From a bacterium (GTDB taxonomy: Bacteria; SZUA-182; DTGQ01), in contig JBFLZW010000030.1 of assembly GCA_040755755.1 (NCBI GenBank), positions 144,991 to 208,990 of the forward strand: a stretch of DNA of 64,000 bases. The letters are read 5' to 3'. A program made the translations under genes and the position numbers. This document shows positions 34,229-62,767 of this stretch, one piece after another. Each line of letters begins with the position of its first letter. Positions within the stretch are counted from its first letter, which is position 1. The notes under the pieces were generated by a model. That model saw only the letters and a program-made list of their open reading frames with translations, ran no database searches and had not been told where the DNA came from.

Positions 34229-34966
34229 ATGACGGAAGATTATCGCAGCAAGGTCGCTTTAGTGATTGGCGGGAGCCGTGGAATAGGGCGGGCGATAGCA
34301 TTACGGCTGGCCCGGTCGAGCTTTGATATCTGGCTCGCTTACCGGGAGAATCATGAAGCTGCGCAGACAGTCAGGGCAGAAGTGGAACAGGCAGGCAGGC
34401 TCTGTGATCTGTTTTCCTTCGATGTCGCTAATTACGATGAGACAAAAGCCGCTCTGGGAGAAAAAGTGGAAGCGCATGCTCCCTCGGTGGTGGTATATAA
34501 TGTCGGTGTTGCCCGGGATAATCTTTTTATGTGGATGACAAAAGAGGAGTGGGACACGGTTCTTTCCACTAATCTTGACGGGTTCTATAATATCATGCAC
34601 CTGGTGCTCTTTCCCATGCTGCGTGAGAAGCAGGGACGCATTGTGGTTATATCTTCGGTCTCCGGGCAGATCGGGCAGGCAGGTCAGGTGAATTATTCCG
34701 CTTCCAAAGCCGGACTGATCGGTGCAGTCAAGGCCCTGGCCAGAGAAGTCGGAAAGAAAAATATCCTGGTCAATGTCGTTTCTCCGGGAATGATTGAAAC
34801 GGATATGACCAGGGAAATCCCCAAAGACAAAGTAATCCCCCTCATTCCATTACAGCGGTTCGGGACTCCGGAAGATGTGGCCTCGGTCGTTAACTTTTTA
34901 TGCACCGAAGAGCATATGTACATTCATGGTCAGGTTATCGGCATCAACGGGGGGCTGGCTATTTAG
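34229..34966 (+). CDS. 3-oxoacyl-ACP reductase (FabG-like, SDR)
   Basis: A 245-residue short-chain dehydrogenase that would reduce the beta-keto group of a growing ACP-bound chain with NAD(P)H. Cofactor motif GGSRGIGRA lies near residue 14, the NNAG-like motif is VYNVGVARDN, catalytic Ser is in ISSVSGQIGQ, the YSASK motif is complete (Tyr-Lys), and the end GQVIGINGGLAI is typical of FabG. The acidic-to-neutral change after the first strand (LAYREN) fits NADPH. It is the first gene of a closely packed run on this strand: the next start follows its stop directly. It resembles ApeQ of aryl polyene clusters in role. Confidence 0.9.
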   Translation: MTEDYRSKVALVIGGSRGIGRAIALRLARSSFDIWLAYRENHEAAQTVRAEVEQAGRLCDLFSFDVANYDETKAALGEKVEAHAPSVVVYNVGVARDNLFMWMTKEEWDTVLSTNLDGFYNIMHLVLFPMLREKQGRIVVISSVSGQIGQAGQVNYSASKAGLIGAVKALAREVGKKNILVNVVSPGMIETDMTREIPKDKVIPLIPLQRFGTPEDVASVVNFLCTEEHMYIHGQVIGINGGLAI

Positions 34967-36481
34967 ATGGAGCGCTATGATGACCTCGTCGTTGGCAGTG
35001 GGGTAAGCGGTATGACCATTGCTCTCCTTCTGGCCATGAATGGACACAAGGTCCTGCTCCTGGAAAAAAATCCTCACCTTGGCGGAGCGATGGCCAGGTT
35101 TTACAAACAGGGTATCCCGTTTGACATAGGATTTCATTTTACCGGAGGGCTTTCCGACAATGGGATCCTTCGCCAGATGCTTTCGGTCCTCGAAATCGAG
35201 GAAGATATCCACCCTGTATTCCTCCTCCATGAGAAAGCCAATCAGCTCGTTTTTGAAGCGGAACAAAATTCATACGAGATGCCGGCTGGAATACAGAATC
35301 TGCAAAGTAAGTTAAAAGGATACTTCCCTGACGAATGCCCGGCAATTGACCGGTATTTCGCTCTGGTACAGAAGGTTTGCAGGCAAACTGTTACTACTGA
35401 TTTAAGCAGGATTTCCCTGTCCCCGGATATGCTCGACGAAGATTTCATCAGCCTTGATCAGGTCCTGAACCAGTTAACTGACAATCAATCCTTAAAAGGC
35501 GTGTTATCGGCGTATTGTCTGTGCTACGGCGTGAAACCGCAGGAGGTCTCTTTTGCCAATCACAGCAGGATATGTCTGAATCAATATGAATCGATGGCCC
35601 GGGTTGAGGGGGGCGGAGATGCCTTTATTCAAGCCTTTGAGAAACAGTTTGCCCGCTATGATGTTGACATTATGAATAACAGATACCTGAGCGAAATGGT
35701 CGATATCAAAAATAATTCCGTTCAGCGGTTCGTTCTGAACACGGGAGAAGAAATAACCTGCAGCCGGTGTATTCTGACTATCCACCCCACGGAGATACTC
35801 AAGATACTGCCCCGGAAATATTTGAGCAAAGCCTTTATTGACCGGATATCGGCCTTTGAATCGTCAGCCGGATTTTTTTCGCTCTTCGGGGTCCTCCAGG
35901 CTGAGGGTCCTGAAGGTGAAAACAAAGATAATTTCCAGCCCTCGATTGTTACTCTTCTCCCATCCGGGGATTTGAATCAGATGCTCGATCCGGAATATTC
36001 CGGCACGCCTTCGTTGATTATCATGAAGTATCTGGAGGCAGTCAACGGGAAAACCTACCGGCTGGTAAGTGCCTTCGAACCATCTTTTTTCGAACATGCA
36101 GTTGCCTGGAAAGATTCACAAACCGGCAAAAGGCCTGCGGATTACCAAAAATACAAACAGCAGCGAATTGAGAGTATAACCGAGCGCATCCATAAATTCT
36201 ATCCGGAATTCAAAAACTCCCTTCAGGTGATGGATGCGGCTTCGATTTTGACCTACCGGGATTATCTGCATTCACCCGAGGGGTCAGCTTATGGCATAAA
36301 GCAAAAAGTCGGACAGTATAACCTTTTTGGAAGGCTTCACCTTCGCAACATCTACGTTGCCGGTCAGAGCGCCCTGTTACCCGGATTGGTAGGGGCAATG
36401 ATGTCATCGTTTATCATGGGCCGGGGCATAGTTGGCAAAGAAACATTCACCCGGTTTATCGAACAGAGATTATGCAATTGA
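34967..36481 (+). CDS. FAD-dependent oxidoreductase (phytoene desaturase/CrtISO-like)
   Basis: A 504-residue flavoprotein: dinucleotide motif DDLVVGSGVSGMTIALLLA near residue 5, then LLEKNPHLGGAMARF, and FDIGFHFTGGLSD, as in CrtI/CrtISO carotenoid enzymes and retinol saturases. The C-terminus has the FAD-clasp YVAGQSALLPGLVGAMMSSF. Such enzymes desaturate, saturate or isomerise polyene chains. Its position directly after FabG and before the KS points to modification of an ACP-bound or released polyene. It starts at the base following the FabG stop, and its end overlaps the KS start by ten bases. Confidence 0.85.
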   Translation: MERYDDLVVGSGVSGMTIALLLAMNGHKVLLLEKNPHLGGAMARFYKQGIPFDIGFHFTGGLSDNGILRQMLSVLEIEEDIHPVFLLHEKANQLVFEAEQNSYEMPAGIQNLQSKLKGYFPDECPAIDRYFALVQKVCRQTVTTDLSRISLSPDMLDEDFISLDQVLNQLTDNQSLKGVLSAYCLCYGVKPQEVSFANHSRICLNQYESMARVEGGGDAFIQAFEKQFARYDVDIMNNRYLSEMVDIKNNSVQRFVLNTGEEITCSRCILTIHPTEILKILPRKYLSKAFIDRISAFESSAGFFSLFGVLQAEGPEGENKDNFQPSIVTLLPSGDLNQMLDPEYSGTPSLIIMKYLEAVNGKTYRLVSAFEPSFFEHAVAWKDSQTGKRPADYQKYKQQRIESITERIHKFYPEFKNSLQVMDAASILTYRDYLHSPEGSAYGIKQKVGQYNLFGRLHLRNIYVAGQSALLPGLVGAMMSSFIMGRGIVGKETFTRFIEQRLCN

Positions 36482-37707
36482 AGCGAGTAGTCATAACAGG
36501 AGTTGGTGCAGTCTGCGGGTTAGGCCAGGACGTTCCCTCTCTTATCGAGGGAATCGAACAGGGGAAAAGCGCTGTTCGCTCCATGGAGGGATGGGACCGG
36601 TATAACGGCCTGCGCTGTCTGGTGGGGGCACCTTGTGAGTTGAAAAATGAGAAGGAAATCCCGCGGCAGTACCGGCGGCTGATGGGCAGGATGAGCATTT
36701 TTGCCGTACAGGCCAGCCAGCAGGCAATCGCTGATGCCGGGATACCACAGGAGAGCTTATCATCGGGACGGATCGGCTGCATCATCGGCTCGACTATGGG
36801 AAGCGCCGAGAGCCTGAACGAGGCATTTGAAATAATATTGCCGAACAAAGATCTGACTCAGTTAAAGTCGACCCAGTTTTTTCAATGTGTTTCCCACACA
36901 GCGACCATGAATGTATCCCGATATCTGGGAATTCATGGGTATGTTACCGCCACTTCGGCAGCCTGCGCATCCGCCCTGCAGGCCCTGGGAGCGGGTTACG
37001 ACCTGATCAGGCTGGGAAGACAGGAAGCCATGGTGTGCGGCGGTGCGGAGGAGCTCCATCCTACGGTAACCGGCTCTTTCGATGTCCTGGTTGCAACTTC
37101 GGCCCGGTATAACCATGCTCCTCATCAAACTCCCCGGCCCTTTGACAGCAAACGTGACGGCCTTGTCTGCGGTGAAGGAAGCGGCATGCTCCTTCTGGAG
37201 GAATATGAACGCGCACGGCAAAGAGGTGCCAGGATATACGCTGAAATCATCGGCTATAACACCAGTGGAAATGGAATCAATGTCAGCCAGTCCTATAAGG
37301 AAGCAATCGTCTCGTGTATGAGTGAGGCCTTACAAGACGCCTCTCTCACCCCACAGGATGTTGACTATATCAATGCCCATGCCACGGCAACCATCCAGGG
37401 AGATAAAGAAGAGGCCGAGGCGATCAGGGAGGTTTTCGGAAATTCCGTACCGGTAAGCAGTCTGAAGGGCTACTTTGGACATACCCTGGGGGCGTCAGGA
37501 TCGATCGAACTGATCGCCTCCCTGATCATGATGAAGAAAGGCAGGATTTATCCTACGCACAATCTGGAAACGGTCAGTCCGGAATGCGAGGGGATTTTTC
37601 ATGTACAGGAATGCCTGAACCGGGAGATCCGCGTCCTGCTCAAGAATTGCTTTGCCTTTGGGGGGATCAATGCTGCCTTGATCTGTAAAAAAGTGCCCTC
37701 TGAATAA
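36472..37707 (+). CDS. Beta-ketoacyl-ACP synthase II-type (KS 1)
   Basis: A 411-residue FabF/KS-alpha enzyme. All three catalytic residues are visible: the nucleophile in TATSAACASALQALG (Cys near residue 166), His in NAHATAT near 303, and His in KGYFGHTLGASG near 336. The N-terminal RVVITGVGAVCGLGQD and C-terminal NCFAFGGINAALI are standard. It would elongate ACP-bound chains by decarboxylative condensation. It overlaps the oxidoreductase gene by ten bases and is followed 21 bases on by an ACP. In aryl polyene logic it corresponds to ApeO or ApeR. Confidence 0.93.
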   Translation: MQLKRVVITGVGAVCGLGQDVPSLIEGIEQGKSAVRSMEGWDRYNGLRCLVGAPCELKNEKEIPRQYRRLMGRMSIFAVQASQQAIADAGIPQESLSSGRIGCIIGSTMGSAESLNEAFEIILPNKDLTQLKSTQFFQCVSHTATMNVSRYLGIHGYVTATSAACASALQALGAGYDLIRLGRQEAMVCGGAEELHPTVTGSFDVLVATSARYNHAPHQTPRPFDSKRDGLVCGEGSGMLLLEEYERARQRGARIYAEIIGYNTSGNGINVSQSYKEAIVSCMSEALQDASLTPQDVDYINAHATATIQGDKEEAEAIREVFGNSVPVSSLKGYFGHTLGASGSIELIASLIMMKKGRIYPTHNLETVSPECEGIFHVQECLNREIRVLLKNCFAFGGINAALICKKVPSE

Positions 37708-37728
37708 CCAGCAGCAAAAAGGATATCT

Positions 37729-37980
37729 ATGACTGAGCAAGAAATAATCACCAAGGTAAACGAGGTATTTATCGAGTCGTTTGAAATAGCGCCGGAAAAG
37801 CTCCAGCCCCAGGTGAATATTTTTCAGGATCTGGGGCTGGATAGCCTTGATATTGTAGATTTGGTTGTGGCTCTGCAAAACAAGTTCAAGATAAAAATAC
37901 ACAATGATGAGCGGATGAGAGAAATCCGGACCCTGGAAGATATTCATCAGTTTGCCAAAAATATAGTTATTGACCGTTGA
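37729..37980 (+). CDS. Acyl carrier protein 1
   Basis: An 83-residue acyl carrier protein with the phosphopantetheine Ser in DLGLDSLDIVDLVVAL near residue 41, four-helix pattern, and acidic helix II (QNKFKIKIHND). AAAAAGGA precedes ATG. It would carry the growing chain for KS 1 and FabG. A second, different ACP is encoded on the other strand at 55551. No phosphopantetheinyl transferase is in the window. Confidence 0.93.
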   Translation: MTEQEIITKVNEVFIESFEIAPEKLQPQVNIFQDLGLDSLDIVDLVVALQNKFKIKIHNDERMREIRTLEDIHQFAKNIVIDR

Positions 37981-38015: not shown

Positions 38016-38768
38016 ATGGATGGCCTCAGCGTTATACTGTTAAACACCTTTTTTTATGGAGCGTTTCTCGTGTTTTCGGCAACGGTTATACCGCTTTTCA
38101 TCCTGTATCTTGCTCTTCTTTCGGTATTCATGTCACACCGCGGCATCATGAGACAGTTACGCCGTGCTATCAGTTGGTATGGTTTTATTATCATCAAGGT
38201 CTTTCCCTTTCCTTTTGCCCGGGTCCGGTACCGGGATTATGGAAAAGCCGATCCTGAGGGACCGTATCTTTTCGTCTGCAACCATCGGTCCGCTTCGGAT
38301 GCCTTTTTAATGGCCTGTTTGCCCTACGAATGTGTCCAGGTGGTAAACATCTGGCCGTTTCGGATACCGGTTTTGGGGACATTTGCCCGGCTGGCTGGCT
38401 ATCTCAGCATCAGAGAGATGTCGTTTGAGGAATTTTCCCGCAAATCGATCGATCTCCTCAACCAGGGAGTTTCCATCATTGCCTTTCCTGAAGGAACCCG
38501 TTCCGGGAGCAGCGTCATGAGGCCGTTTCACAGCTCAGTGTTCCGGGTCGCTCTCGAAGCCCGGTGCCCGATTGTGCCAATATGTATTTCCGGAAACGAA
38601 GACAAGCCCCATCGGGGCTCTCTCATACTTCATCCGGGAATAATCAGGATGCATAAATTACCAGCCCTGCCCTGGGAAAAATACAAAGATTTAACCTCGT
38701 TTAAGTTAAAAAACATGGTGCGGGACATTATTGCCCGGGAACTGGCTGGTATGGAGGGAAATAGATAA
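38016..38768 (+). CDS. PlsC-family 1-acylglycerol-3-phosphate acyltransferase-like protein
   Basis: A 250-residue membrane-associated acyltransferase. Two N-terminal helices precede motif I HX4D as NHRSASDAFLM near residue 90, and motif III IAFPEGTRSGSSVMRPF near 160; PIVPICISGNED is motif IV-like. It could transfer the product acyl chain to a glycerol-phosphate or other lipid acceptor, as ApeD is thought to do in aryl polyene clusters. Its stop TAA shares a base with the ATG of the ligase gene. Confidence 0.85.
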   Translation: MDGLSVILLNTFFYGAFLVFSATVIPLFILYLALLSVFMSHRGIMRQLRRAISWYGFIIIKVFPFPFARVRYRDYGKADPEGPYLFVCNHRSASDAFLMACLPYECVQVVNIWPFRIPVLGTFARLAGYLSIREMSFEEFSRKSIDLLNQGVSIIAFPEGTRSGSSVMRPFHSSVFRVALEARCPIVPICISGNEDKPHRGSLILHPGIIRMHKLPALPWEKYKDLTSFKLKNMVRDIIARELAGMEGNR

Positions 38769-40075
38769 TGACAGAGCTGTCCCGGTATCGGGAAATTTCG
38801 TTTTCCAGCCCGGAAGCGATACGAGAGGTGCAGGAGGGCCGGTTGCGAAAACATCTTGTTTATTGCCGTGAGCATTCCCCGTATTATCGAAGGGTGTTAC
38901 AAGATATTGACCTTGATTTTGAAAAGATAACCCTCGACCTGATATCCCGGCTTCCCTTCACGGATAAATCCGAGATCGAAAAATATAACCATGACCTGTG
39001 CGCAGTTGCCCCGGATAAAATCGTCGATATTGTCCTGTCCTCCGGAACAACCGGCAGCCCGACTCTGGTAATGTACACGGAGCATGATCTCAGGCGGCTT
39101 GCTTACAATGAGGAAATCTCCTTCCAGGGATGTGGAATGACCAGGGATGATGTGGTGCTGCTGACCTGTACCATAGACCGGTGTTTTGTGGCTGGTCTGG
39201 CGTATTTCCTGGGGGTGCGCAGTGTCGGGGCGGCAGCAATCAGGAGTGGCCAGAATAGTGTGGAAAGTCACTGGGAAATCATCAGGAGAATGAATCCTAC
39301 AATTATCGTTGGAGTCCCGACCTTTCTCAAGAAACTGGGCCTCTATGTGCAGGAAAGGGGAGTCGATCCTGGTCAACTCAGGGTATCCAAACTGATATGC
39401 ATCGGTGAGCCGTTACGGGATAAATATCTCAAGTTATTGAAGATCGGGGAAGATTTGGAAAAAATCTGGCAGGCTCAATGCTTTTCCACCTACGCTTCTT
39501 CGGAAGTGGTGACCACATTCTGCGAATGCAGTGCCCGGCAGGGAGGGCATCTTCATCCGGACCTGGCGGTTCTTGAAATCGTCGATGAAGCGGGCAGGGC
39601 AGTCCCTGCCGGAACTATCGGGGAGGTAGTGATAACTCCGCTGGCGGTTGAAGGAATGCCGCTGGTACGGTTTAAAACCGGAGATGTAAGCTTCCTGATC
39701 GATAAACCCTGCTCCTGCGGAAAAAACTCTCCCCGCCTGGGTCCGATCCTGGGGAGAAAGAAACAGATGATGAAGATCCGCGGGACCACCCTTTATCCCC
39801 AGGCAGTATATTCAGCCCTGGACGAAATCGAGGCGGTCGGTGAATATTATCTTGTCGTCAGCCGCGAGAGCAATCTGTCTGACACCATAACCATTTATGC
39901 GGCGGTCAACGACGCCTCATGTACGGCTGAGGTTATTCAGGACCGGCTTCAGGCACGGCTGCGGGTGAAACCGTCGGTGGTGATCGATTCTCCGGAAGCG
40001 GTACGGCAACAGGTGTTCAACCCGAAATCGAGGAAACCGATCCGGTTCCGGGATAAACGACAGGGGATGAAGTAA
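38768..40075 (+). CDS. PaaK-like adenylate-forming acyl/aryl ligase
   Basis: A 435-residue member of the phenylacetate-CoA ligase/coenzyme F390 synthetase family. The ATP loop is LSSGTTGSPTLVMYTE near residue 90, followed by the aromatic/Glu motif YASSEVVTTF near 245, and a zinc-like CSCGKNSPRLGPILGRK. The C-terminal domain carries MMKIRGTTLYPQAVY. It would activate a carboxylic acid starter, aryl or alkyl, for loading onto an ACP or CoA. This may supply the starter unit in place of the cinnamate ligase of aryl polyene clusters. It overlaps the acyltransferase by one base. Confidence 0.85.
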   Translation: MTELSRYREISFSSPEAIREVQEGRLRKHLVYCREHSPYYRRVLQDIDLDFEKITLDLISRLPFTDKSEIEKYNHDLCAVAPDKIVDIVLSSGTTGSPTLVMYTEHDLRRLAYNEEISFQGCGMTRDDVVLLTCTIDRCFVAGLAYFLGVRSVGAAAIRSGQNSVESHWEIIRRMNPTIIVGVPTFLKKLGLYVQERGVDPGQLRVSKLICIGEPLRDKYLKLLKIGEDLEKIWQAQCFSTYASSEVVTTFCECSARQGGHLHPDLAVLEIVDEAGRAVPAGTIGEVVITPLAVEGMPLVRFKTGDVSFLIDKPCSCGKNSPRLGPILGRKKQMMKIRGTTLYPQAVYSALDEIEAVGEYYLVVSRESNLSDTITIYAAVNDASCTAEVIQDRLQARLRVKPSVVIDSPEAVRQQVFNPKSRKPIRFRDKRQGMK

Positions 40076-40077
40076 CC

Positions 40078-41568
40078 ATGCAAACCTGCCCAAGCAAGAT
40101 TCGTAACTTTGAATTCAGCCGGGAAGAAATCGAAGAGGCAGTAAGAGCTGACCGGCTCCTTTCTCTGGAGATCGAATTCAGCCTGCGCTGCAATTTTCGC
40201 TGCTCGTATTGCTACCAGCCGGAAAGCTCTGTGTTCGAACATGAACTGACGGAAGAAGAAATCCGGGATGTTATTCTCCAGGCCAAAGACCTTGGAGCCA
40301 GAAAAATCGTTATCCTCGGCGGCGAGCCGATGGTCTATCCCCACATTCTCGAAGTAATTGCCTTTATCCGGCAGCAGGGTCTCGATATCGAGATGTTTAC
40401 CAACGGCTTTCAGATCACGGCTGCCGTGGCCGGGTATTTGTTCAACCATCAGGTCATGGTGGTCCTCAAGATGAATACTCATGATGAAAAGACCCAGGAT
40501 ATGCTGGCCGGGAAAAAGGGAGCCTACAAAATCATCCAGACTGCGTTTTTGCATTTGAAACAGGCAGGCTACCCCTCCGAAAAAGCTCCTCTGGCAGTCA
40601 GCACCATTATCTGCCGGCAGAATATCGATGATCTGGCAGGTATGTGGCAGTGGCTGCGAAATCAAAACATTATTCCCTATTTTGAAATGATTACTCCCCA
40701 GGGCAATGCCAGACAGAATGCATGGTTAGCGGTCGATTCAAAAAAAGTGTTTGACGTATTTCAGCAGATCGCCGACATCGACCGCCGTCAATATGGCCAG
40801 TGCTGGGACCCTCAGCCTCCTCTGGTCGGCAACAAGTGCCTGCGGCACCGGTTTTCCTGCCTGGTCAATTCGCAGGGGGATGTAATGCCCTGTGTCGGGG
40901 TGGGTATTCCTATCGGCAATATCCGGGAGCACAGGCTTTCCGATATCTTGCAGGGGAGTGAGGTTGTCCGGGACCTCAAAAACTTCCGTCACACCATCAA
41001 AGGCCCCTGCCGCAGGTGCGAAAAACTCGAGAGCTGCTACGGCTGCCGGGGGGCGGCCTATCAATTGACCGGAGATTATCTGGCCTCGGACCCCTTATGC
41101 TGGAAGAACGCCGACCGTCAGGATGAAATCGTTACCCTGCCGATATCGGCCCATGAGATTATCCCGCAGAAAGAACCGATGCGGGTCATCGATTCCCTGC
41201 TCAAATTGGGCGAGCGGACAGCGGAAGTTTCGGTAACTATCCGGGAAGATATGCCCGGGGTCGATGAAAACGGCATGATCGACCAGACCCTCTATCTTGA
41301 AATGATGGCCCAGGCCGTTGCAGCTCAAAAGGGATTCAAATACCTTGGCACATCTCAATCGCCGCCCGATGGATTTCTGCTGGGAGCCAGAAATCTGGAG
41401 ATTCTGGGGAGTGCCTGTGTCGGCGATACCCTGACCGTGATGGTAACCCAGTCTGTCCAGTATGGTGATTTTGGGCTGGTACAGGGCACCGTGGTGCGGG
41501 GCGGTCAGGTGCTGGCACGAGGGGAGATAAAGGTCTGGCAAAATACCAGTCAGGAGGCAGTTGCTTGA
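40078..41568 (+). CDS. Radical SAM-SPASM protein fused to a hotdog (dehydratase-like) domain
   Basis: A 496-residue two-part enzyme. Residues 1-345 are radical SAM with the [4Fe-4S] motif C38-NFR-C42-SY-C45, GGEPMVY and a SPASM-like Cys region (CLVNSQGDVMPC, CRRC...CYGCRG, LCWKN). From about 353 the fold changes to a hotdog domain (PISAHEIIPQKEPMRVIDSL, MMAQAVAAQKG, GARNLEILGSACVGDTL) like ApeP/FabA-type dehydratases. The hotdog HEIIPQKEPM has the dehydratase-like histidine. One chain would thus combine radical chemistry on an ACP-bound chain with dehydration or binding. It follows the ligase gene by two bases and its stop overlaps the LolA start (TTGA). Confidence 0.85.
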   Translation: MQTCPSKIRNFEFSREEIEEAVRADRLLSLEIEFSLRCNFRCSYCYQPESSVFEHELTEEEIRDVILQAKDLGARKIVILGGEPMVYPHILEVIAFIRQQGLDIEMFTNGFQITAAVAGYLFNHQVMVVLKMNTHDEKTQDMLAGKKGAYKIIQTAFLHLKQAGYPSEKAPLAVSTIICRQNIDDLAGMWQWLRNQNIIPYFEMITPQGNARQNAWLAVDSKKVFDVFQQIADIDRRQYGQCWDPQPPLVGNKCLRHRFSCLVNSQGDVMPCVGVGIPIGNIREHRLSDILQGSEVVRDLKNFRHTIKGPCRRCEKLESCYGCRGAAYQLTGDYLASDPLCWKNADRQDEIVTLPISAHEIIPQKEPMRVIDSLLKLGERTAEVSVTIREDMPGVDENGMIDQTLYLEMMAQAVAAQKGFKYLGTSQSPPDGFLLGARNLEILGSACVGDTLTVMVTQSVQYGDFGLVQGTVVRGGQVLARGEIKVWQNTSQEAVA

Positions 41569-42227
41569 AACAACAGGCAATAGTGTTCATGGTATGGTTT
41601 TTACTGTTCGGAATATGCCGCCTCAGTGAACCGGCAATGCAGGAAGCCGGTCGTCCGGATACGCCGCAAATCGTTACGATCCTGAAAAGGCTGGAAGGGA
41701 AAATGTCCGGCATAAAAACACTCAGGACCAGTTTCACTCAGGAGAAAAATCTCGCGGTTTTCGATCGCAAGCTCATCCTGAAAGGAACTATTTTTCTGCA
41801 AAAGCCTGATCTTTTCGCCTGGCATGTCAAAGATCCGGTCCGCTATTCCCTGCTCATAAAAGGCGGCGCAGTAACTCAATGGGATGAAGAGAGCGGGAAG
41901 GTCCAGCACATATCCCTGGCGAAGAATCCCGGATATCAAATTGTCACCCGGCAGTTGCAGGAATGGTTTTCCGGTACCTATACTTCACTGCTTGAGCACT
42001 ACGAGGTGAGGGTCCTGAATCATGATCCGGTTTGCCTGAAGTTCGATCCCCGCAAAGATGCCCTGGCCAGTAAAGCCATTACCAGTGTCACCGTTACCTT
42101 CGATAAGGATGAGCGCTACATTCAAACAATCTCCATCCAGGAAAAGAATGGAGATGGCACCCTCCTTACCTTTACCGATACTCAGCTCAATATTCCCATC
42201 GATGCCAGGGCCTGGGAGGTGAAATAG
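41565..42227 (+). CDS. LolA-like periplasmic lipid/lipoprotein carrier
   Basis: A 220-residue exported protein with a TTG start overlapping the previous stop. The N-terminal helix (AIVFMVWFLLFGICRL) is followed by the LolA pattern: LKRLEGKMSGIKTLRTSFTQEKNL, KGTIFLQKPDLFAWHVK, GGAVTQWDEESGKV, and a C-terminal SVTVTFDKDERYIQTISIQE. LolA folds carry hydrophobic acyl groups through the periplasm. In aryl polyene clusters ApeL has this fold and probably carries the product lipid. The MMPL exporter gene begins one base after its stop. Confidence 0.85.
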   Translation: MKQQAIVFMVWFLLFGICRLSEPAMQEAGRPDTPQIVTILKRLEGKMSGIKTLRTSFTQEKNLAVFDRKLILKGTIFLQKPDLFAWHVKDPVRYSLLIKGGAVTQWDEESGKVQHISLAKNPGYQIVTRQLQEWFSGTYTSLLEHYEVRVLNHDPVCLKFDPRKDALASKAITSVTVTFDKDERYIQTISIQEKNGDGTLLTFTDTQLNIPIDARAWEVK

Positions 42228-42228
42228 G

Positions 42229-49121: not shown

Positions 49122-49431
49122 GGGAGAGAGGGATGCAGTGTGGGTGGGTGCGTATTAATCATGGATACCAGGGGTTTTTATATAAGGGAAAAAACAATTA
49201 ATTCAAACTCTCGAAAAGGTTGCATTGGCTTTAGGCAAGAGGTTGAAAATAGAGTTAACATAAACAGGTAAAATATCCCCCATTTCTCTCGATCGAGAGG
49301 AGGACGGTAACAACCATCACCCCCACCCAGCATCCCCCCTCAAGGGGGAGGGAGAAGAGTGGATGTCTTTCCTCAAGGGGGATAATGGATGCTCCTATAC
49401 AAGACGAAGAAGAATCGGCGAACGAGCAGTC
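49122..49431. other. Gap between the ATPase/PIN pair and the half-KS gene
   Basis: About 310 bases containing a 111-bp repeat element at 49274-49384; nothing else is recognised. It may mark the right edge of the inserted ATPase/PIN-like unit and must hold the promoter for downstream genes if the insertion is polar. Confidence 0.5.
49274..49384. repeat. GC-rich palindromic repeat, copy 3 (111 bp)
   Basis: Ends TATCCCCC (49274-49281) and GGGGGATA (49377-49384) are perfect inverted repeats. The centre holds CCCCCTCAAGGGGG, with C- and G-rich tracts like the other copies. Confidence 0.6.
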
Positions 49432-55550: not shown

Positions 55551-55811
55551 CTAATTGCTCTTTTCCTGATGCTCTCTGATATAGTCAGCTATTGTTTTTA
55601 CTGAAACAAAGACTTCCCTGGCTACGTTCCTGTTCTTGATTTCCAGGTGATAATTTTTTTTCAGGATTGCAGCTAATTCGACGGCATCAAGAGAATCGAG
55701 CCCCAGGCCCTCGCCAAAAATAGGCGTGTTGTCATCCAATTCTTCCGGTTGGATATTTTTAATCTGAAGTTCTGACACTATCAATTCTTTCAGTTTGTCT
55801 TCTAGTCTCAT
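55551..55811 (-). CDS. Acyl carrier protein 2
   Basis: An 86-residue ACP with the phosphopantetheine Ser in GEGLGLDSLDAVELAAIL near residue 38. It differs clearly from ACP 1 (longer N-terminus, Leu-Asp-Ser-Leu-Asp-Ala rather than Leu-Asp-Ser-Leu-Asp-Ile). It is the first gene of the minus-strand arm in map order but the last to be transcribed, after the ABC exporter. In flexirubin and dialkylresorcinol clusters an ACP accompanies the BtrH-like protein and ABC exporter, as here. Confidence 0.92.
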   Translation of the reverse strand: MRLEDKLKELIVSELQIKNIQPEELDDNTPIFGEGLGLDSLDAVELAAILKKNYHLEIKNRNVAREVFVSVKTIADYIREHQEKSN

Positions 55812-55867
55812 AATGGTTCCAATAATTATGGTATTCGGTGGAGCCCAAGCCCACCCTGCATTCGCCT

Positions 55868-55923
55868 GCTATGTTTTAGCCACTGCACAGGATAATGCCT
55901 TGCGCCACTGACTACTGACCACG
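55868..55923. repeat. Inverted copy of the GTGGCGCAAGGC dispersed repeat
   Basis: Read on the minus strand it gives GTCAGTGGCGCAAGGC followed by TTATCC, matching 19881-19940. It lies between the ABC permease and ACP 2 genes. Confidence 0.5.
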
Positions 55924-57252
55924 TCACTCCCGCTGCCATATGTAATAGCCGAAGGATATTACTATAGTAACGACAAAAAAGCCGAGAAGCCGCCCGACGT
56001 TGGGCAGCACGGAGGTCAGGCTGCCGTGCCGGAGGAAGACATCAAGGAAAGCATTCAGGCCCCAGGCCAGGGGTGAGATGGTGCTCAGTTTTTGCATGAA
56101 CTCCGGCATTGCGTATACCGGCACCATGACTCCGCCCAGGGCAGCGGCAATAATGATGATAACCGCGCCGAAGGTTGATGCCTGCTGCTGGCTTCGCATG
56201 ATCGTCCCGATTGCCAGCCCGAAACCTATGGCTGCAAGAGCGGCAGCCGTAGCCACCAGCATCAGGGCCGGATAGTTGCTGCCGATTTCCAGTTTCGGGG
56301 AGCCGAAAAGGGGAAGTATCTTGAATCCCACAAACAGCATCAGCAAAAACTGGGACAGGCATACCAGCAGGTATACAATCACCTTGGCCAGTAAGACCGT
56401 AAAGTAGCTGACCGGAGCGACCATTATCCTCTTCAGGATACCCTGCTGCCGCTCGTTGATAAGATAGCCGGACAAGGGGACAACGATAAAAAACATGGCA
56501 AACATGGTCCAGGCCGGTACATTCTGCTGGGTTGAGGTCGGCAGCATGCCTTTTTTCGGATCAAATATAAACTCCTCCTTGATTTCAACCAGAATCCCGT
56601 CATATTTCGAGAAACTGGATGCAGAAAGCCGGTTGACTAACGTGCCTGCGCCCGATCCGCTGGTGCTGGACAGGCTGTTCAGAATAGTTTCCATCTCGGT
56701 CATGATTATGCTGCGGCTCAGGGCATTCATGATCGTCTCTCTGAACAGCTCAGGGAGGGCGGGGTCCAGCATGACCTGTACTCTGGCCAGGGCCTGTTCC
56801 CGCAATTTGTCCAATGAGATCTGCGGCTGCGGTGGAGAAAGGCCCGGCGGATAGGTGCCAGCCGGGACAAGGCTGCTCATGAGTTTTCCGGCCAGGGTAT
56901 CGAAGCTGCGGGAAGTACCCTGCGGGATAAAGATACACACTTTGAAATCGCCGCGGGCGAGGGCTCGTTTTGCCTCCTCCAGCGTGGGTATCCGACTTCC
57001 ACCATGAGTATGGACCTGAAAACTTCCTGACTGGCGGAGTCTTTCCTCGATTGTTTCGCTGAGGGACCCTGTGTCCTGATTCACCAGGAGGAGTTTGAGA
57101 GTCGGGTTTTGGGTCGCTTTCAGGGCGGTGTCATGTACGAGCGAAATAACCAGCACCAGAGCGGTAGGCATGAGAAAGAGCACTGCCAGGCCGGCTTTGT
57201 CTCTCAGTAAAAGGAGGATATCCTTCCTGGCGATGGACAAAAGTTTCAGCAT
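55924..57252 (-). CDS. ABC-2 type exporter permease
   Basis: A 442-residue permease: helix 20-40 (AGLAVLFLMPTALVLVISLV), a large extracytoplasmic domain (about 45-240), then five helices including MFAMFFIVVPLSGYLI, VIVYLLVCLSQFLLMLFVGF, GFGLAIGTIMRSQQQAS and VIIIIAAALGGVMVPVYAMP. This is the YhhJ/DrrB type with long soluble loop used for drugs, lipids or polysaccharides. It is paired with the ATPase gene six bases upstream. It probably exports the product or a precursor. Confidence 0.9.
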   Translation of the reverse strand: MLKLLSIARKDILLLLRDKAGLAVLFLMPTALVLVISLVHDTALKATQNPTLKLLLVNQDTGSLSETIEERLRQSGSFQVHTHGGSRIPTLEEAKRALARGDFKVCIFIPQGTSRSFDTLAGKLMSSLVPAGTYPPGLSPPQPQISLDKLREQALARVQVMLDPALPELFRETIMNALSRSIIMTEMETILNSLSSTSGSGAGTLVNRLSASSFSKYDGILVEIKEEFIFDPKKGMLPTSTQQNVPAWTMFAMFFIVVPLSGYLINERQQGILKRIMVAPVSYFTVLLAKVIVYLLVCLSQFLLMLFVGFKILPLFGSPKLEIGSNYPALMLVATAAALAAIGFGLAIGTIMRSQQQASTFGAVIIIIAAALGGVMVPVYAMPEFMQKLSTISPLAWGLNAFLDVFLRHGSLTSVLPNVGRLLGFFVVTIVISFGYYIWQRE

Positions 57253-57258
57253 GATTCT

Positions 57259-58017
57259 TTAGTCTCTCAATTTCCTGCCGGTTAAATGCAGAAACAACTG
57301 TTCGAGGTTCTCATATCCCGCGTCCCGGTGAAGTAATTCATAAGGGGTACCCTGATCCAGGATCCGGCCCTGATCGATAATGGCTATTCGCGAGCATAAT
57401 TGTCTGACTTCTTCGATGTAATGCGTAGTATAAATCATGGTTACTCCACTCCGGTTAACGGAGGACAGGATTTCGAGGATGCGATACCTCGACTGGGTAT
57501 CGATGCCGAGGGTCGGCTCGTCCAGGATAATAATATCCGGCTCATGAATCATGCCGATGGTTAAGTTGGTAAGCCGCTTCATCCCTCCGGAAAAGGTACA
57601 AACCCGGCAATCAGCCTTTTTCCCCAGCCCCGTAATGTCCAGGCAGGTATCAATTCTCTTCTTCAGCTCTTTTCCCTGCAAACCATACAGGTACCCGAAC
57701 AGTTTCAGATTTTCCCTGGCCGTGAGTTCCTCATACAGGGCGATATCCTGGGTCACCAGACCGAGCCGCTTTTTTATCTGTTTGGCATGACGCAGGATAT
57801 TTCTGCCGAAAATATCCACCCTTCCCTGGTCAGGCTTCAATATTCCACATAAAATGGAAATAAGCGTTGTTTTTCCTGCACCATTCGGCCCCAGTAACCC
57901 AAGAGATTCACCTTGGTGAATCGACAGGCAGATACTGTCCAAAACCGGAGAGCTTTGAGAGGGGTACCTTTTGCTCAGGCTATCGACAGTTATGATCGGT
58001 TTGTTGGCGTCATCCAT
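57259..58017 (-). CDS. ABC exporter ATP-binding protein
   Basis: A 252-residue ATPase: Walker A LLGPNGAGKTTLISIL near residue 39, Q-loop VTQDIALYEE, signature TFSGGMKRLTNL near 144 (Leu at a position that is usually Val/Ala), Walker B IIILDEPTLGIDTQSR and His switch YTTHYIEEVRQLC. It partners the ABC-2 permease. It overlaps the BtrH-like gene by eight bases, so three genes are translated together. Confidence 0.92.
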   Translation of the reverse strand: MDDANKPIITVDSLSKRYPSQSSPVLDSICLSIHQGESLGLLGPNGAGKTTLISILCGILKPDQGRVDIFGRNILRHAKQIKKRLGLVTQDIALYEELTARENLKLFGYLYGLQGKELKKRIDTCLDITGLGKKADCRVCTFSGGMKRLTNLTIGMIHEPDIIILDEPTLGIDTQSRYRILEILSSVNRSGVTMIYTTHYIEEVRQLCSRIAIIDQGRILDQGTPYELLHRDAGYENLEQLFLHLTGRKLRD

Positions 58018-59089
58018 GATGGTTTTTCAGTAACCGGGTGGTAATGTTCTTTCTCAGCTCCTGGAAGATCGCCTTTTCACGGTCAGCGCAATCGAGCAGA
58101 ATGTCCGAAGCAACAGTCAGAGTATCGTTTTTTCCGGCCCGCTCCTTGCAAATCCTTGAGGCCAGGAGCGCAAATTCCCTCCACCTGTCCCCTGTTTCTG
58201 TCATTTCTCCTGACATTTTCAGCAGGAATTCGGCTTGTGCCGGGAGAACATCAGCGGCTTTCTGGAGAAAGGCTCCGAAGATAAAACGAAACCCGGCCCC
58301 ACCCGTACCGATTTCCTCCTGCATCCGAATGACCTGGGCCAGATACAGAATGGCCTTTCTGTCTCCGAGTTTCTCAGGCCAGGAGGGTATTTGTCTGGCC
58401 AGATACCGTATGCCGTACACACCGCCCAAAGGGGGAGGGGACATCAGCATCATAAAGCAGGTCCTGCGGATCCCTTTGACAACTGCCCTGGCGATATGAT
58501 GAGGCTGGGTTGAGCAGCCGGTTATGTAGTACATCTTCCCCTGGGGAGCGAAGGCACCCCTGGCAAACCGGGCTTTTTGCAGAGAGCGGGGAGAAATGGT
58601 AACTGGATGGTCGAGCGTCGGATCACTGATCAGATATTCCCCCTTCTCTTTGCCATAGACAATAATGTTATGCCCATTAAAGTGGAACCGGAGCGCATCC
58701 GGGAAAAAAGGCAGCCAATATACTCCTACCTGTAAACCAACCGGAATGTTCTCTTCCAGGGCCTGATCGAGCGCTGTCATGGCTTTTTCCTGATTGCGAA
58801 AGCGGCGCACCCGGACCCTGACCTTGAGCATGCTGGCAACCCGGTTAAAGATCGATCCGGGCATCACCCGGAAGGTAGTCAGAGGAATGCCGTCAAGCCT
58901 GATAAAAGGCAGGTAGGCAAAAAACAGTCCCGCGCCGATTCCAAAAGCCAGCGGCTCGTCAATATCAAGGCCGCTATGCTGCAACAGGTTGGCCGTAACT
59001 CCCGTTTCACAATGAGCGCTCTGTAAGTGATGAAAATTTATGGTCAATAATGTTTGCCCCTTTTCTTTCCACCTAAGTACACGGCACAT
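58010..59089 (-). CDS. BtrH-like acyltransferase (BtrH N-terminal domain)
   Basis: A protein of up to 359 residues. The papain-like BtrH fold is indicated by the nucleophile Cys in HLQSAHCETGVTANLL near residue 27, His in FHFNGHNIIVYGKE near 160 and Asp in LISDPTLDHPV, the Cys-His-Asp order of acyl-transferring members. BtrH moves an acyl chain from an ACP to an aminoglycoside, and by analogy this one may move the product chain from ACP 2 to an acceptor. The ATG at 59089 lies inside a repeat arm with no ribosome-binding site; TTG 59047 has AAAAGGGG nine bases upstream and is a likely true start. It heads the exporter group. Confidence 0.82.
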   Translation of the reverse strand: MCRVLRWKEKGQTLLTINFHHLQSAHCETGVTANLLQHSGLDIDEPLAFGIGAGLFFAYLPFIRLDGIPLTTFRVMPGSIFNRVASMLKVRVRVRRFRNQEKAMTALDQALEENIPVGLQVGVYWLPFFPDALRFHFNGHNIIVYGKEKGEYLISDPTLDHPVTISPRSLQKARFARGAFAPQGKMYYITGCSTQPHHIARAVVKGIRRTCFMMLMSPPPLGGVYGIRYLARQIPSWPEKLGDRKAILYLAQVIRMQEEIGTGGAGFRFIFGAFLQKAADVLPAQAEFLLKMSGEMTETGDRWREFALLASRICKERAGKNDTLTVASDILLDCADREKAIFQELRKNITTRLLKNHHG

Positions 59090-59209
59090 TAAATACGCGG
59101 CCGGTTAAAGCCGCCCATTCACTCCCTATCCCCCCTGTGGGGGGAGAGAGCTGGGGTGAAGGGGCGTCGTTGAACCAAACCGGCCGGGTAATTCCCGCGT
59201 CGTGTACTA
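59075..59209. repeat. Palindromic repeat element, copy 4 (MITE-like, about 135 bp)
   Basis: Imperfect 33-bp terminal arms (AGTACACG 59076-59083 and CGTGTACT 59201-59208; GGCCGGTT 59099-59106 and AACCGGCC 59178-59185) flank a GC-rich core like copies 1-3. It fills the space between the BtrH-like gene and the toxin-antitoxin-like pair, carrying the annotated ATG of one and the stop of the other. Confidence 0.65.
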
Positions 59210-59419
59210 AGAGCCCTGTTCGGTGTCTTTCATTCTCAGAGACATGGCTTTCTTGCTGATTTCTTCTATGGATAAGTCTTCATCGAGACCTTGACGCCAC
59301 TTTGTATAATCAAAAGGTTCCCTCTGAATAAGGGCTATGAATCTCTCTGCTTCAACATCACCAAGATGTTCTGCCAGAACTTTTAGCCCTTTCATTCTGA
59401 TTTCTGTATCGGTCATCAT
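59207..59419 (-). CDS. Small partner of a PIN protein (antitoxin-like)
   Basis: A 70-residue soluble protein, MMTDTEIRMKGLKVLAEHLG, then AERFIALIQREPFDYTKW, RQGLDEDLSIEEISKKAM. It overlaps the upstream PIN gene by four bases, so the two are translationally coupled. The pairing of this small family with a PIN protein is what I recall from other genomes; the antitoxin role is inferred. Its stop lies in the repeat element. Confidence 0.6.
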   Translation of the reverse strand: MMTDTEIRMKGLKVLAEHLGDVEAERFIALIQREPFDYTKWRQGLDEDLSIEEISKKAMSLRMKDTEQGS

Positions 59420-59847
59420 GATAAAGCCTCCTTTATGAAGCCGATCGGATCATTGACTCTAATATCATCTATATGCATTGCACAGCGCAAGATCTTATCA
59501 TCAGTGGTCAGGAAATAATCGCATTTGGCGATAATGGCACAAGAGACATGTAAACAATCAATCTTTTGAAGCCCTTTCTTTTTCAGGAAATTAGCGGTTC
59601 CAATCAATTCCGGGCTTTCTTGAATATCCACAAGGGCGTATTTCCTCCAGCCATTAATCCGATCTTTCCGCTCCTGATATGGATTCTTCCCATTCTCGTA
59701 ATCCAGAATGTATGACCAAGCCAACTGGAAATGCCCTGAACGGATTTCTTCCTGAATCTTCAATTTTGCCTCTGACTCAAGCCGTATTCTGATTTGAGAC
59801 TGATCGTCAAATGGCCGATTGCAGCAATTATCAAGATAGATTCTCAT
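59416..59847 (-). CDS. PIN-domain protein (toxin-like RNase)
   Basis: A 143-residue protein beginning MRIYLDNCCNRPFDD, with Asp6 in the PIN first-strand position, then QLAWSYILDYENGKN, KIDCLHVSCAIIAKCDYFLT, and TTDDKILRC, giving the usual acidic cluster of PIN RNases. It is coupled to the small partner gene. The pair separates the BtrH-like gene from the KSIII gene and so looks inserted. Confidence 0.78.
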   Translation of the reverse strand: MRIYLDNCCNRPFDDQSQIRIRLESEAKLKIQEEIRSGHFQLAWSYILDYENGKNPYQERKDRINGWRKYALVDIQESPELIGTANFLKKKGLQKIDCLHVSCAIIAKCDYFLTTDDKILRCAMHIDDIRVNDPIGFIKEALS

Positions 59848-59866
59848 TTGCCTTCCTCCAGCCTGG

Positions 59867-60274
59867 CTACCTCCAGGTAACTCGCTGAACTTTGCCGAGA
59901 TCTTCTATCGGAATATCAAAAACATCCGCGTAAAGTTTCATTTCCCGGCTGCTCAGCTTCCTGAATCCTTCCGGGCTGAGATGCTGCTTTATTTTCCGTT
60001 TGGGGATATGGGTGTATTGAGAGAGAAGGTCAATGTCCATTTGGTGTCGAACCATATGCATGGCCAGGGGACTCACATCACCTCTCTCTACCTGCTTCCT
60101 GACCTCTTCCGCTTCCTGCCGGATTTTCTGCCAGGCCAGTTTATTGGCGATATTGGCAGGCTCCCACCCTGCACTGGGTACTTGAACGTATTTTCCATCC
60201 TTGTCAACAGCATAGCTGACTTCATGCCAGGGACCAAGCAGGCTCTTATCCTGGGGAACATCTTCTTTTCGCAT
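59867..60274 (-). CDS. Small conserved protein of dialkylresorcinol-type clusters
   Basis: A 135-residue soluble protein. The N-terminus MRKEDVPQDKSLLGPWHEV and APSAGW-like motif VPSAGWEPANIANKLAWQ, then SPLAMHMVRHQMDIDLLSQY, THIPKRKIKQHL, YADVFDIPIEDL resemble a small family I recall next to DarB-type KSIII genes in flexirubin-type clusters. The C-terminal third looks like a helix-turn-helix. It may regulate or act as an adaptor. It lies 26 bases from KSIII and 19 bases from the PIN gene. Function unknown. Confidence 0.6.
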   Translation of the reverse strand: MRKEDVPQDKSLLGPWHEVSYAVDKDGKYVQVPSAGWEPANIANKLAWQKIRQEAEEVRKQVERGDVSPLAMHMVRHQMDIDLLSQYTHIPKRKIKQHLSPEGFRKLSSREMKLYADVFDIPIEDLGKVQRVTWR

Positions 60275-60300
60275 GAATTACCCCCCTGCAGTTACTTTCA

Positions 60301-61452
60301 TCATACAGCGGTTAAGAGCATATAACAAATAGAAAATCGTCCGCTTTCGGGTATGAAGCACAGGAGCTTCTGACCTTTTTGTATTTTTTGTGAATGGAAA
60401 AGCTCATCGAGAATAATGTAGATGGAGGCAGCCCCGGTATTCCCCTTGGTGTGAAGGTTGGTGAACCATTTCTCCAGGGGGATTTCAAAGCCGATACTCT
60501 TCAGCCGAAGGTAAAAGTCGTTCTTGAAGAACTCAGATGAATAGTGAGGCAGGAACCAGTCTACATCCGATGCGGAAAGATTATGTTTCCGGATGATGAT
60601 GGGCACGGTACGATCCACTGCTGTCTTGACGATTTCCCGGTTTAAAAGCTTTACATCCTGATGAATGGCAAAACAGTTATTATCCATCGCTTCCTGCAGG
60701 GAATCGAATCCTCGCCAGCCTTGGAGTATACCATTTTCATGTTTTACGGCACCGGCATACATACAGGTCTCCAGCTCATTGGCAAATGATACCTGCTCGA
60801 TCCAGTCAATGCGCAGCGATAGCCGGTTATCTGCCGGTCTGGACTCCAGGAACGCTGCCCCGGCCCCATCGGAGAGCATCCATTTTAAAAACTCTGCGTT
60901 GAAGCCGAGGATAGGGCTGTCTTCCGGGGTGGTTTCCGGGCTGGTGGTGCCGGGGTTTGGGTGCCGCTGCATGCGAAAAAGGGTGGAGGCTGCTTCCGAG
61001 CCTGTGGTCACGGCATTTCTGCTCATCCCGGCAGCTATGCTGGCAAAGCCGAATTTCATGGCTGTCATACCGGAAATGCAGATACCCGAAGTGCTGACCA
61101 CTTCACAGGGGGGATTCCCTAATTCTCCATGAACCATGGAGGCATGTCCCGGCATGAGTTGGTCAGGAGTGGAGGTGCCGCAGCATAAGCACTCGATGTC
61201 ATGCAGGGAAAAGTGAGCGGAGGGCCTGAGCCTTCGCACTGCTTCGGCTGTCATTTGTGCATTGGTATGCGTGATCTCTCCCGATCGGCGGTCAATGGCA
61301 TAGTAGCGGGTTTTTATACCGTTGTTGCGAAGAACGGTACGCCGTATGCGAGACGAGATACCTGAAGCCCTTCCCATAATCGACTCTATCTCATCATTGG
61401 TAACAGGCTCGTTCGGCAGAAAAGCAGCAAGATCAGTTATGTAAACTTCCAT
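60301..61452 (-). CDS. Beta-ketoacyl-ACP synthase III (DarB-like)
   Basis: A 383-residue KSIII. The start (EVYITDLAAFLPNEPVTNDE, then NNGIKTRYYAIDRR) matches DarB-type enzymes of dialkylresorcinol/flexirubin pathways. Catalytic residues: Cys125 in STSGICISGM, His in WFLPHYSSEFF, and Asn in HTKGNTGAAS. DarB condenses two acyl units to a cyclohexanedione, and an aromatase (DarA) is then needed; I see no DarA-like gene here. It may instead start the chain with an acyl-CoA. It lies 16 bases from the radical SAM gene upstream and 26 from the small protein downstream. Confidence 0.85.
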   Translation of the reverse strand: MEVYITDLAAFLPNEPVTNDEIESIMGRASGISSRIRRTVLRNNGIKTRYYAIDRRSGEITHTNAQMTAEAVRRLRPSAHFSLHDIECLCCGTSTPDQLMPGHASMVHGELGNPPCEVVSTSGICISGMTAMKFGFASIAAGMSRNAVTTGSEAASTLFRMQRHPNPGTTSPETTPEDSPILGFNAEFLKWMLSDGAGAAFLESRPADNRLSLRIDWIEQVSFANELETCMYAGAVKHENGILQGWRGFDSLQEAMDNNCFAIHQDVKLLNREIVKTAVDRTVPIIIRKHNLSASDVDWFLPHYSSEFFKNDFYLRLKSIGFEIPLEKWFTNLHTKGNTGAASIYIILDELFHSQKIQKGQKLLCFIPESGRFSICYMLLTAV

Positions 61453-61468
61453 ATTTACAGAATTCCCT

Positions 61469-62767
61469 TCATACCGTTGCCCTGGAGTGAAATCGCATGG
61501 CCAGTTCAGTCAAAGATTGATAAAATTCCTTCTCAGGAAGTCTGGTTGGTGTCACTGCATTGGTCAAAGTATAGTAGTCTAAATCGTGAATAACGATTTT
61601 ATCCTTCATGGATTGATATAAAGGTGTGCCCGGCAGCGGGGTGAGTACGGTAAATACCGGGAGCTGAATGGTATTTTCCTCGATAAAGCGGGCCAGGGTC
61701 TGAAAGTCTTTTTCATTATAGTCCGGAGAGATAATAAAATCCCCGATTATGGATATTTCCAGGTCATGGAGTATGCTGATTGCTTCCCGGACGATGTCAG
61801 CGGTATTTTTCTTGCCCCATTTTGCCAGAAGGGTGTTGTTAATCTCCTCAAAACCAACGATAACTGCGCGCAGACCGGCATTTTTCCAGAGGTGAAAAAG
61901 CTCCCGATGATTCACCACGGTATCGGCACAGGCATCGATCATGAAATGCTTCTGGAGGTCGGCCTCAAGAAGAGCATGGCCAAGCTCGTGTGCCCTTTTC
62001 ACATCGCCAAACGTGTTGGCATCGACCAGGCGAATGACCGGAGTGGTGCCGAGAAGCTTAATATCTCTGATTACACAATCGGGAGAACAGGTAAGATACC
62101 GTTTTCCTGTCAGATTGGCAATGGAGCAGAAGGAGCAGGAATTCGGGCAGCCAAAAGCCGTGGCCACAAAGCCCATCTGCAGCCGGGGAAAAGGAACCAG
62201 ATACTGGTCACGGTACCTGTCAACCAGGTCATAGCGGGGTGCACGGGATTCCACGATATCCTCTTTCCGAAAGTCGCGGGGAATCCAGGAAAGCCTGCCT
62301 GATGGATTGGTTTTGGCAACCCCGGCTATGTCGGCCGGGTAATCCCCCTTTTCAACGGCTGCAACAAGCTCTCGAAAACTGGCCTTTCCCAGCCCCATGA
62401 CAATATAATCAACAGCCGGATGGTTAAAGAAACCGGGATCATTACTGGCGTGAACACCGCCGACGACAAGGGTTGTATCCTTTTTCAGTTCCCTGATTTC
62501 CCGGCAAAGGCGCAGAACGGTCCTGGCCTCACAGGTCAGGCTGGTAAAACCGACCAGATCGGGATTAAAATCAAGCATAGTATCAGCCAGGCTCTCTCCC
62601 TGGACTTTCAGGTCGAGGATTTGAGTCTCATGTTCATCGAGATTTCCCGCCAGCGCTTCCAGAGCCAATGGCTCACCGCGAAATATCCGCTGAGTTGCCG
62701 GAAATCCAAATTTTTCCTGGGGAGCACTCCGCCCGCAATTCGGCGGATTAACGAGGAGAATTTTCAT
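61469..62767 (-). CDS. B12-binding-type radical SAM protein 3
   Basis: A 432-residue protein from ATG 62767, chosen over the in-frame start at 62911 because the family begins MKILLVNPPN there. A cobalamin-binding-like domain (VNPPNCGRSAPQEKFGFPA, LVVGGVHASNDPGFF, VDYIVMGLG) precedes the radical SAM core (ATAFGCPNSCSFCSIANLTG near residue 190, CX3CX2C). The third such protein of the locus. It is the most upstream gene of the minus arm and starts a run of closely spaced genes. Role in hydrocarbon-chain modification is inferred. Confidence 0.85.
   Translation of the reverse strand: MKILLVNPPNCGRSAPQEKFGFPATQRIFRGEPLALEALAGNLDEHETQILDLKVQGESLADTMLDFNPDLVGFTSLTCEARTVLRLCREIRELKKDTTLVVGGVHASNDPGFFNHPAVDYIVMGLGKASFRELVAAVEKGDYPADIAGVAKTNPSGRLSWIPRDFRKEDIVESRAPRYDLVDRYRDQYLVPFPRLQMGFVATAFGCPNSCSFCSIANLTGKRYLTCSPDCVIRDIKLLGTTPVIRLVDANTFGDVKRAHELGHALLEADLQKHFMIDACADTVVNHRELFHLWKNAGLRAVIVGFEEINNTLLAKWGKKNTADIVREAISILHDLEISIIGDFIISPDYNEKDFQTLARFIEENTIQLPVFTVLTPLPGTPLYQSMKDKIVIHDLDYYTLTNAVTPTRLPEKEFYQSLTELAMRFHSRATV

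Follow-up and report, generated by a model that had tools for sequence, protein, structure and literature searches.

We analysed a 64,000-nucleotide stretch of DNA, hereafter the window, from a bacterium of the GTDB lineage SZUA-182; DTGQ01 (GCA_040755755.1), which lies at the end of a 209-kb contig (JBFLZW010000030.1; G000:C30:144991-208990) of a 5.26 Mb genome that is 97.6% complete. The window carries a large biosynthetic locus in two arms, arm 1 comprising genes g01 to g20 and arm 2 being, as judged from its sequence, a dialkylresorcinol (dar) operon with one substitution. All gene types listed in an initial annotation were found again, using profile matches, motifs and a structure model: two full ketosynthases (KS), a half-KS, two acyl carrier proteins (ACPs), hotdog enzymes, export genes, a DarB-type ketosynthase III (KSIII) and four radical S-adenosylmethionine (rSAM) proteins (Table 1). 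These four (g07, g17, g18 and g27) all contain CxxxCxxC, g07 being of the SPASM type and the others B12-binding. The two-arm chassis resembling aryl polyene and flexirubin loci was likewise recovered, with KS/half-KS, ketoreductase, ApeI/ApeP-like proteins, a FlxY-like ligase and DarB/G/H, as was the tight packing (intergenic gaps mostly -37 to +35 bases), but the locus is not one continuous block, two gene pairs within it looking like insertions. Conservation of the gene order across the loci fetched from other genomes rules out a chance assembly. What we observe directly is the identity of the genes, their conserved order and junctions, and that neither DarA nor an ammonia-lyase is present; a dar operon joined to an arm-1 locus, with a B12-binding rSAM (B12-rSAM) gene at the usual place of darA, seems to be undescribed so far.

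Table 1. Features of the two-arm locus (positions within the window; profile scores are bits or E-values).
Feature	Position	Strand	Evidence
Arm 1	34229-54920	+	g01-g20
g01 FabG-type ketoreductase	34229-34966	+	Pfam adh_short_C2 8.9e-52; 78% identity in G002 locus L031
g02 CrtI/CrtISO-like flavoprotein oxidoreductase	34967-36481	+	NAD_binding_8/Amino_oxidase; carotenoid isomerase model 60 bits, near full length
g03 ketosynthase	36472-37707	+	NF006587 432 bits; Cys-His-His motifs
g04 acyl carrier protein	37729-37980	+	PP-binding 9e-10; LGLDSL
g05 PlsC-type acyltransferase	38016-38768	+	Pfam Acyltransferase 3.5e-23
g06 FlxY-like acyl-CoA ligase	38768-40075	+	NF053551 FlxY 471 bits (cut-off 520)
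g07 rSAM/SPASM and ApeP-like hotdog fusion	40078-41568	+	Radical_SAM, SPASM, ApeP-like; CNFRCSYC
g08 LolA-like carrier	41565-42227	+	LolA 5e-15; LolA2_flexi 94 bits (cut-off 125)
g09 MMPL/HpnN-like exporter	42229-44640	+	TIGR03480 HpnN 1.8e-22
g10 DUF3261 lipoprotein	44628-45299	+	Pfam DUF3261 1.6e-8
g11 FabA/ApeI-like dehydratase	45296-45703	+	FabA 8.4e-7; ApeI-like 1.8e-4
g12 4HBT thioesterase	45688-46170	+	4HBT_2 4.7e-16
g13 second ketosynthase	46137-47291	+	Profile matches; Cys-His-His
AAA ATPase and PIN-like pair (insertion)	47343-49121	+	PADLOC PDC-M07A/B candidate defence system, 575 and 172 bits
g16 half-KS, chain-length-factor-like	49363-50100	+	Orthologues; KS fold Z 16.9
g17 B12-rSAM	50132-51409	+	B12-binding, Radical_SAM; 69-83% identity in syntenic loci
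g18 B12-rSAM, TIGR04072 rSAM_ladder_B12	51373-52773	+	626 bits (cut-off 360); E 2.9e-188
g19 GT2-DUF2062	52763-54001	+	Profile match
g20 LpxL-like acyltransferase	53901-54920	+	Lip_A_acyltrans 3.9e-15
Arm 2 (dar operon)	55551-62767	-	ACP, ABC pair, DarH, DarG, DarB, g27
Arm-2 ACP (DarC-like)	55551-55811	-	PP-binding 1.9e-9; same place in L127, L128, L129
g21 ABC permease (Azoarcus DarI position)	55924-57252	-	ABC2_membrane_3
g22 ABC ATPase (DarF position)	57259-58017	-	ABC_tran
g23 DarH, BtrH-related acyltransferase	58010-59089	-	NF053550 447 bits (cut-off 300)
Small protein and PIN-like protein (insertion)	59207-59847	-	PIN 0.0022, under Pfam cut-off
g25 DarG-family protein	59867-60274	-	NF053536 139.7 bits (cut-off 70)
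g26 StlD/DarB-family ketosynthase III	60301-61452	-	NF005293 558 bits (cut-off 450); C/H/N invariant
g27 B12-rSAM, DarA position	61469-62767	-	B12-binding/Radical_SAM; orthologues in G060/G092/G087

The order g27-DarB-DarG-DarH-ABC-ABC-ACP in arm 2 matches that of the Azoarcus dar operon, darA-B-D-E-F-I-C (PMC3949708), with g27 standing for darA and individual genes paired by position. DarB, a DarG/DarD-type protein, DarH/DarE, the ABC pair and the ACP thus follow the order known from Azoarcus sp. BH72 (arcuflavin) and flexirubin producers, whereas the window differs in having no DarA, a B12-rSAM in its place and an unrelated PIN-type insertion. The nearest solved structure to g26 is StlD (5gk0), and under the stricter NF053539 DarB model it falls below the cut-off (477 against 550). 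DarH matches above the cut-off occur in three of 386 genomes, two of which are the window's genome and its family member. Sub-cut-off DarH-like matches (L165-L171) and two plasmid-borne DarB relatives (Prevotella, Pseudoalteromonas) were rejected since they lie outside dar operons.

DarB condenses two acyl units into a cyclohexanedione, which DarA aromatises. As a DarA query we used the flavodoxin-like protein lying directly before DarB in a Bacteroidota flexirubin-type cluster (L164), whose identity as DarA rests on this position and on flavodoxin-like similarity; no NCBIfam model names it, and two candidate models, NF053540 and NF053538, were rejected as they represent LolB2_flexi and an unrelated enzyme. 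This query found a protein of 40% identity in the Bacteroidales metagenome-assembled genome (MAG) G086. It found no DarA in the window's genome (G000), in agreement with the initial annotation, nor in G060 or the Lentisphaerota MAG G087, and gave noise only (E 0.03, one stop) in the Nitrospirota MAG G092. All four of these genomes, which are those with a dar operon of the window's kind, combine a g27 orthologue (67% identity in G060, 57% in G092, 54% in G087) with the lack of DarA. The other genomes searched for g27, G086 and G392 among them, gave at most 32% identity or, at the threshold used, no match, and a close g27 homologue is absent from two DarA-bearing genomes. The four g27 proteins form a supported clade, the weight of which is limited by long branches elsewhere in the tree. 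Among profile models, HpnR (162 bits) and BchE (117 bits) matched g27 best, each falling well short of its cut-off, and the structure model of g27 was rejected as too poor (pLDDT 61).

B12-rSAM enzymes catalyse methylation or oxidative and ring-forming reactions, and C-methylation and a DarA-like oxidation appear about equally likely roles for g27. No relevant paper naming both dialkylresorcinol and radical SAM was found among the open-access papers searched, and the replacement of DarA by a B12-rSAM is probably novel. Present in four genomes from three lineages, this replacement suggests that a resorcinol-type ring undergoes a reaction not yet described.

In the window, in G087 (L128) and in G092 (L129-L130), the dar operon is the neighbour of g20; in G092 it is flanked on its other side by KS3-CLF, and g27-DarB are encoded on the opposite strand. 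G060, from the window's own family and with the same 20,980-base contig as G002, carries the dar operon together with ACP-KS3-CLF on a single contig, while arm 1 stands at the end of a second one. Where dar is lacking, as in L044, ACP-KS3-CLF comes directly after g20. The window's genome has KS3-CLF on contig C24 and the arms on C30. As C30 ends with the N-terminal part of a BsoBI-type restriction endonuclease (63539-63916) and C24 starts with a type II methyltransferase (L181:113-892) followed by KS3-CLF, C24 probably continues C30. Small coiled-coil-like proteins, similar by eye, lie between the arms (54904-55371, minus strand) and near KS3-CLF (L181:1429-1680, minus strand).

Within arm 1, Cys-His-His is kept in both full ketosynthases, g03 and g13. 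The half-KS g16 lacks all catalytic Cys/His motifs and matched no sequence family in a profile search; its AlphaFold model (pLDDT 86) matches FabF-type KS (Z 16.9), and a pseudogene was rejected as its 59 orthologues hold a similar length (about 160-275 aa). The nearest models to g07 are AhbD/NirJ2/PqqE. FlxY-type ligases activate the polyene starter, and a KS with its chain-length partner, a ketoreductase and ApeI/ApeP-type dehydratases build the polyene. Arm 1 has a KS, a partner resembling a chain-length factor (CLF) and a ketoreductase, with weak matches to ApeI/ApeP-type dehydratases, and a dedicated enoyl reductase is absent from the gene set.

Arm 1 shares with aryl polyene, xanthomonadin and flexirubin arms the KS and half-KS, ketoreductase, ApeI/ApeP-like proteins, thioesterase, ligase, PlsC, LolA, MMPL, DUF3261 and GT2, and differs in its CrtI-like oxidoreductase, its three rSAM proteins and the lack of an ammonia-lyase. 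The last of these, first noted for the locus, extends to the 97.6%-complete genome, in which the aromatic ammonia-lyase profile PF00221 had no match while control genomes were positive. An alternative starter route is known from Azoarcus, in the chorismatase XanB2 (PMC3949708). It could be argued that the locus encodes an ordinary flexirubin or aryl polyene pathway that draws its starter and DarA functions from elsewhere and in which the rSAM genes are incidental, as the FlxY-like ligase, LolA2-like protein, DarB/G/H and ApeI/ApeP-like dehydratases would suggest. Neither an ammonia-lyase nor DarA was found in the genome, however, and g17 and g18 are present in nearly all intact arm-1 loci and are therefore not incidental, so that this explanation is already disfavoured and we consider it extremely unlikely.

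A scan whose query was an alignment of five g18 sequences found 202 relatives, and 80 of these were fetched. The conserved order runs ligase, rSAM-hotdog, LolA, MMPL, DUF3261, dehydratase, thioesterase, KS, half-KS, B12-rSAM, B12-rSAM, GT2, LpxL, and is mostly kept in the fetched loci where contigs are long enough; the order of g05-g20 recurs in at least 10 phyla. Carriers, which are MAGs and a few isolates, are labelled Thermodesulfobacteriota, Nitrospirota, Omnitrophota, Hydrogenedentota, Elusimicrobiota, Kiritimatiellota, Lentisphaerota, Planctomycetota, Bacteroidota, Myxococcota and others; the two Elusimicrobiota loci keep the arrangement for g17-g18 only. Most fetched loci stop before g01-g04, which are complete in L031 and L130. 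In a g17 tree the window groups with L042, L043 and L080, near Desulfobacterales-type loci, and L084 with Nitrospirota, placements that are rough as many forks are open. Arm 1 is thus an old and widespread operon. Two carriers, Desulfamplus magnetovallimortis and Pontiellaceae bacterium B12227, appear to be isolates, and lipid analysis may be feasible in them without cloning.

Clusters of this type have been reported as ‘ladderane-like FASII’ (type II fatty acid synthesis; ‘ladderane’ in antiSMASH) from Kuenenia, Desulfotalea, Geobacter and Pelobacter (Rattray 2009; PMC2649909). In public genome mining the label ‘ladderane’ is already applied to them in many phyla, non-anammox ones included, their role being called unknown (PMC9902471). 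Arm 1 is for these reasons not a new class, and the suggestion that the locus represents one fails for the main arm, whose order recurs in dozens of genomes; what seems new is narrower, the dar operon joined to arm 1 with a B12-rSAM at the DarA place. Like those clusters, the window holds in one locus a TIGR04072 member with other rSAM genes, a phytoene-dehydrogenase-like oxidoreductase, a phenylacetyl-CoA-ligase-like enzyme (PCL/FlxY-like), divergent KS paralogues, a membrane exporter and a glycosyltransferase. It differs from them in belonging to a multi-phylum, mostly non-anammox branch, in the fusion of rSAM/SPASM to a hotdog domain and in the attached dar operon.

The connection to ladderanes that had been raised as one possibility gained substance from g18 and from a diverged locus of the same kind in an anammox genome. 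From a search with PF18582 in the phylum of a Brocadiaceae-labelled MAG we chose 17 genomes with HZS-alpha-sized frames, which we judged to be anammox; ten of these have g18 relatives, at 29-36% identity only. The locus around the best of these relatives, L217, encodes a FlxY-like ligase (422 bits), an AhbD/NirJ2-like SPASM rSAM, a TIGR04072 rSAM (440 bits), FabG, an MMPL-like exporter, a CrtI-like oxidoreductase and a GT2, the ligase being 37% and the SPASM rSAM 44% identical to those of the window; BLASTP found no half-KS match between the two. With matching types of genes in both, a TIGR04072 rSAM included, arm 1 and this candidate locus are, on sequence comparison, distant relatives, and Rattray and colleagues likewise drew a distant tie between the anammox cluster and that of Desulfotalea (PMC2649909). 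That arm 1 itself makes a true ladderane, a fatty acid with concatenated cyclobutanes, would agree with both g18 and the anammox B12-rSAM passing TIGR04072 and with the genes shared with L217. Identity to the best anammox enzyme is only about 36%, though, and many carriers are non-anammox; Desulfotalea has a syntenic cluster, yet no ladderanes were detected in it (PMC2649909), and an attempt at heterologous expression of 34 anammox candidate genes was unsuccessful (PMC4790861). We therefore regard a true ladderane product as very unlikely.

A second g18-related B12-rSAM occurs in four presumed anammox genomes (L218:9329-11825, L221:7804-10319, L222:7919-10444 and L223:9715-12426), adjoining a conserved protein of ~350-380 aa that by eye resembles KSIII or type III polyketide synthases; with 316 bits, the copy in L218 narrowly misses the TIGR04072 cut-off. 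This pair is possibly relevant to ladderane biosynthesis.

The locus probably serves to make an unusual surface lipid, for which we propose the following chemistry, role of g27 and union of the two arms. The FlxY-like ligase of arm 1 would load an acid, from which KS/half-KS, ketoreductase and hotdog dehydratases, with no dedicated enoyl reductase, would build a polyene acyl chain; the CrtI-like flavoprotein and g07, g17 and g18 may then modify this chain, and the acyltransferases, LolA, MMPL and lipoprotein would bring the product to the outer membrane. In arm 2, two acyl units would be condensed to a DarB-type ring, g27, instead of the DarA aromatase, would modify the ring or its precursor, DarH would move an acyl group from an ACP, and the ABC pair would export. 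Finally, the products of the two arms would combine. Whether this locus is a flexirubin-type two-arm lipid or pigment locus adapted to rSAM chemistry, with both arms yielding one composite lipid, we judge to be evenly poised.

Several observations weigh against that reading. DarB at 49% identity or more is present in four of 50 arm-1 genomes (a fifth match, at 26%, is a distant KSIII), and the other 46 have no close DarB, which shows that arm 1 can do without arm 2. Among the four, G086 carries a DarA-DarB pair in place of this arrangement; in G087 g27 and DarB are on separate contigs; and the recognition of DarA rests on position and similarity rather than on a curated model. Two independent pathways could lie side by side, with a modified acyl lipid made by arm 1 and a separately exported dialkylresorcinol- or cyclohexanedione-type molecule by arm 2. 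The frequent absence of a close DarB and the ACP and ABC exporter proper to arm 2 would favour this. Against it, the dar operon stands at the same g20 junction in three distant lineages, and in flexirubins polyene and dialkylresorcinol are esterified together (PMC3992019). We see it as a credible alternative, although not the expected one.

Returning to the composite lipid, g27 might be an oxygen-independent B12-radical stand-in for DarA by which the cyclohexanedione from DarB is aromatised, oxidised or alkylated, giving a new head group joined to a ladderane-related, rSAM-modified polyene. We advance this tentatively and consider it rather unlikely. The argument from lack of oxygen is weak because G086 keeps DarA beside DarB; in this genome arm 1 and the DarA-like/DarB pair, which has neither DarG nor DarH next to it, are on different contigs (L131 and L074). 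If the proposal were true, the anammox ladderane-candidate locus would by analogy begin with a polyene of type II polyketide origin and not with desaturation of a saturated fatty acid. The route of ladderane biosynthesis is a long-standing open problem, and the locus ties the candidate family to characterised polyene chemistry (FlxY, ApeI/ApeP, KS/CLF, DarB), offering a concrete set of partners.

Both insertions encode PIN-like proteins. The AAA ATPase and PIN-like pair is absent between g13 and g16 in syntenic relatives and, given also its PDC-M07 match, was rejected as part of the pathway. The small protein and PIN-like pair, not seen between DarH and DarG in L127, L128 and L129, is probably a toxin-antitoxin system; the Azoarcus dar operon also contains a prevent-host-death/PilT pair, but at a different place.

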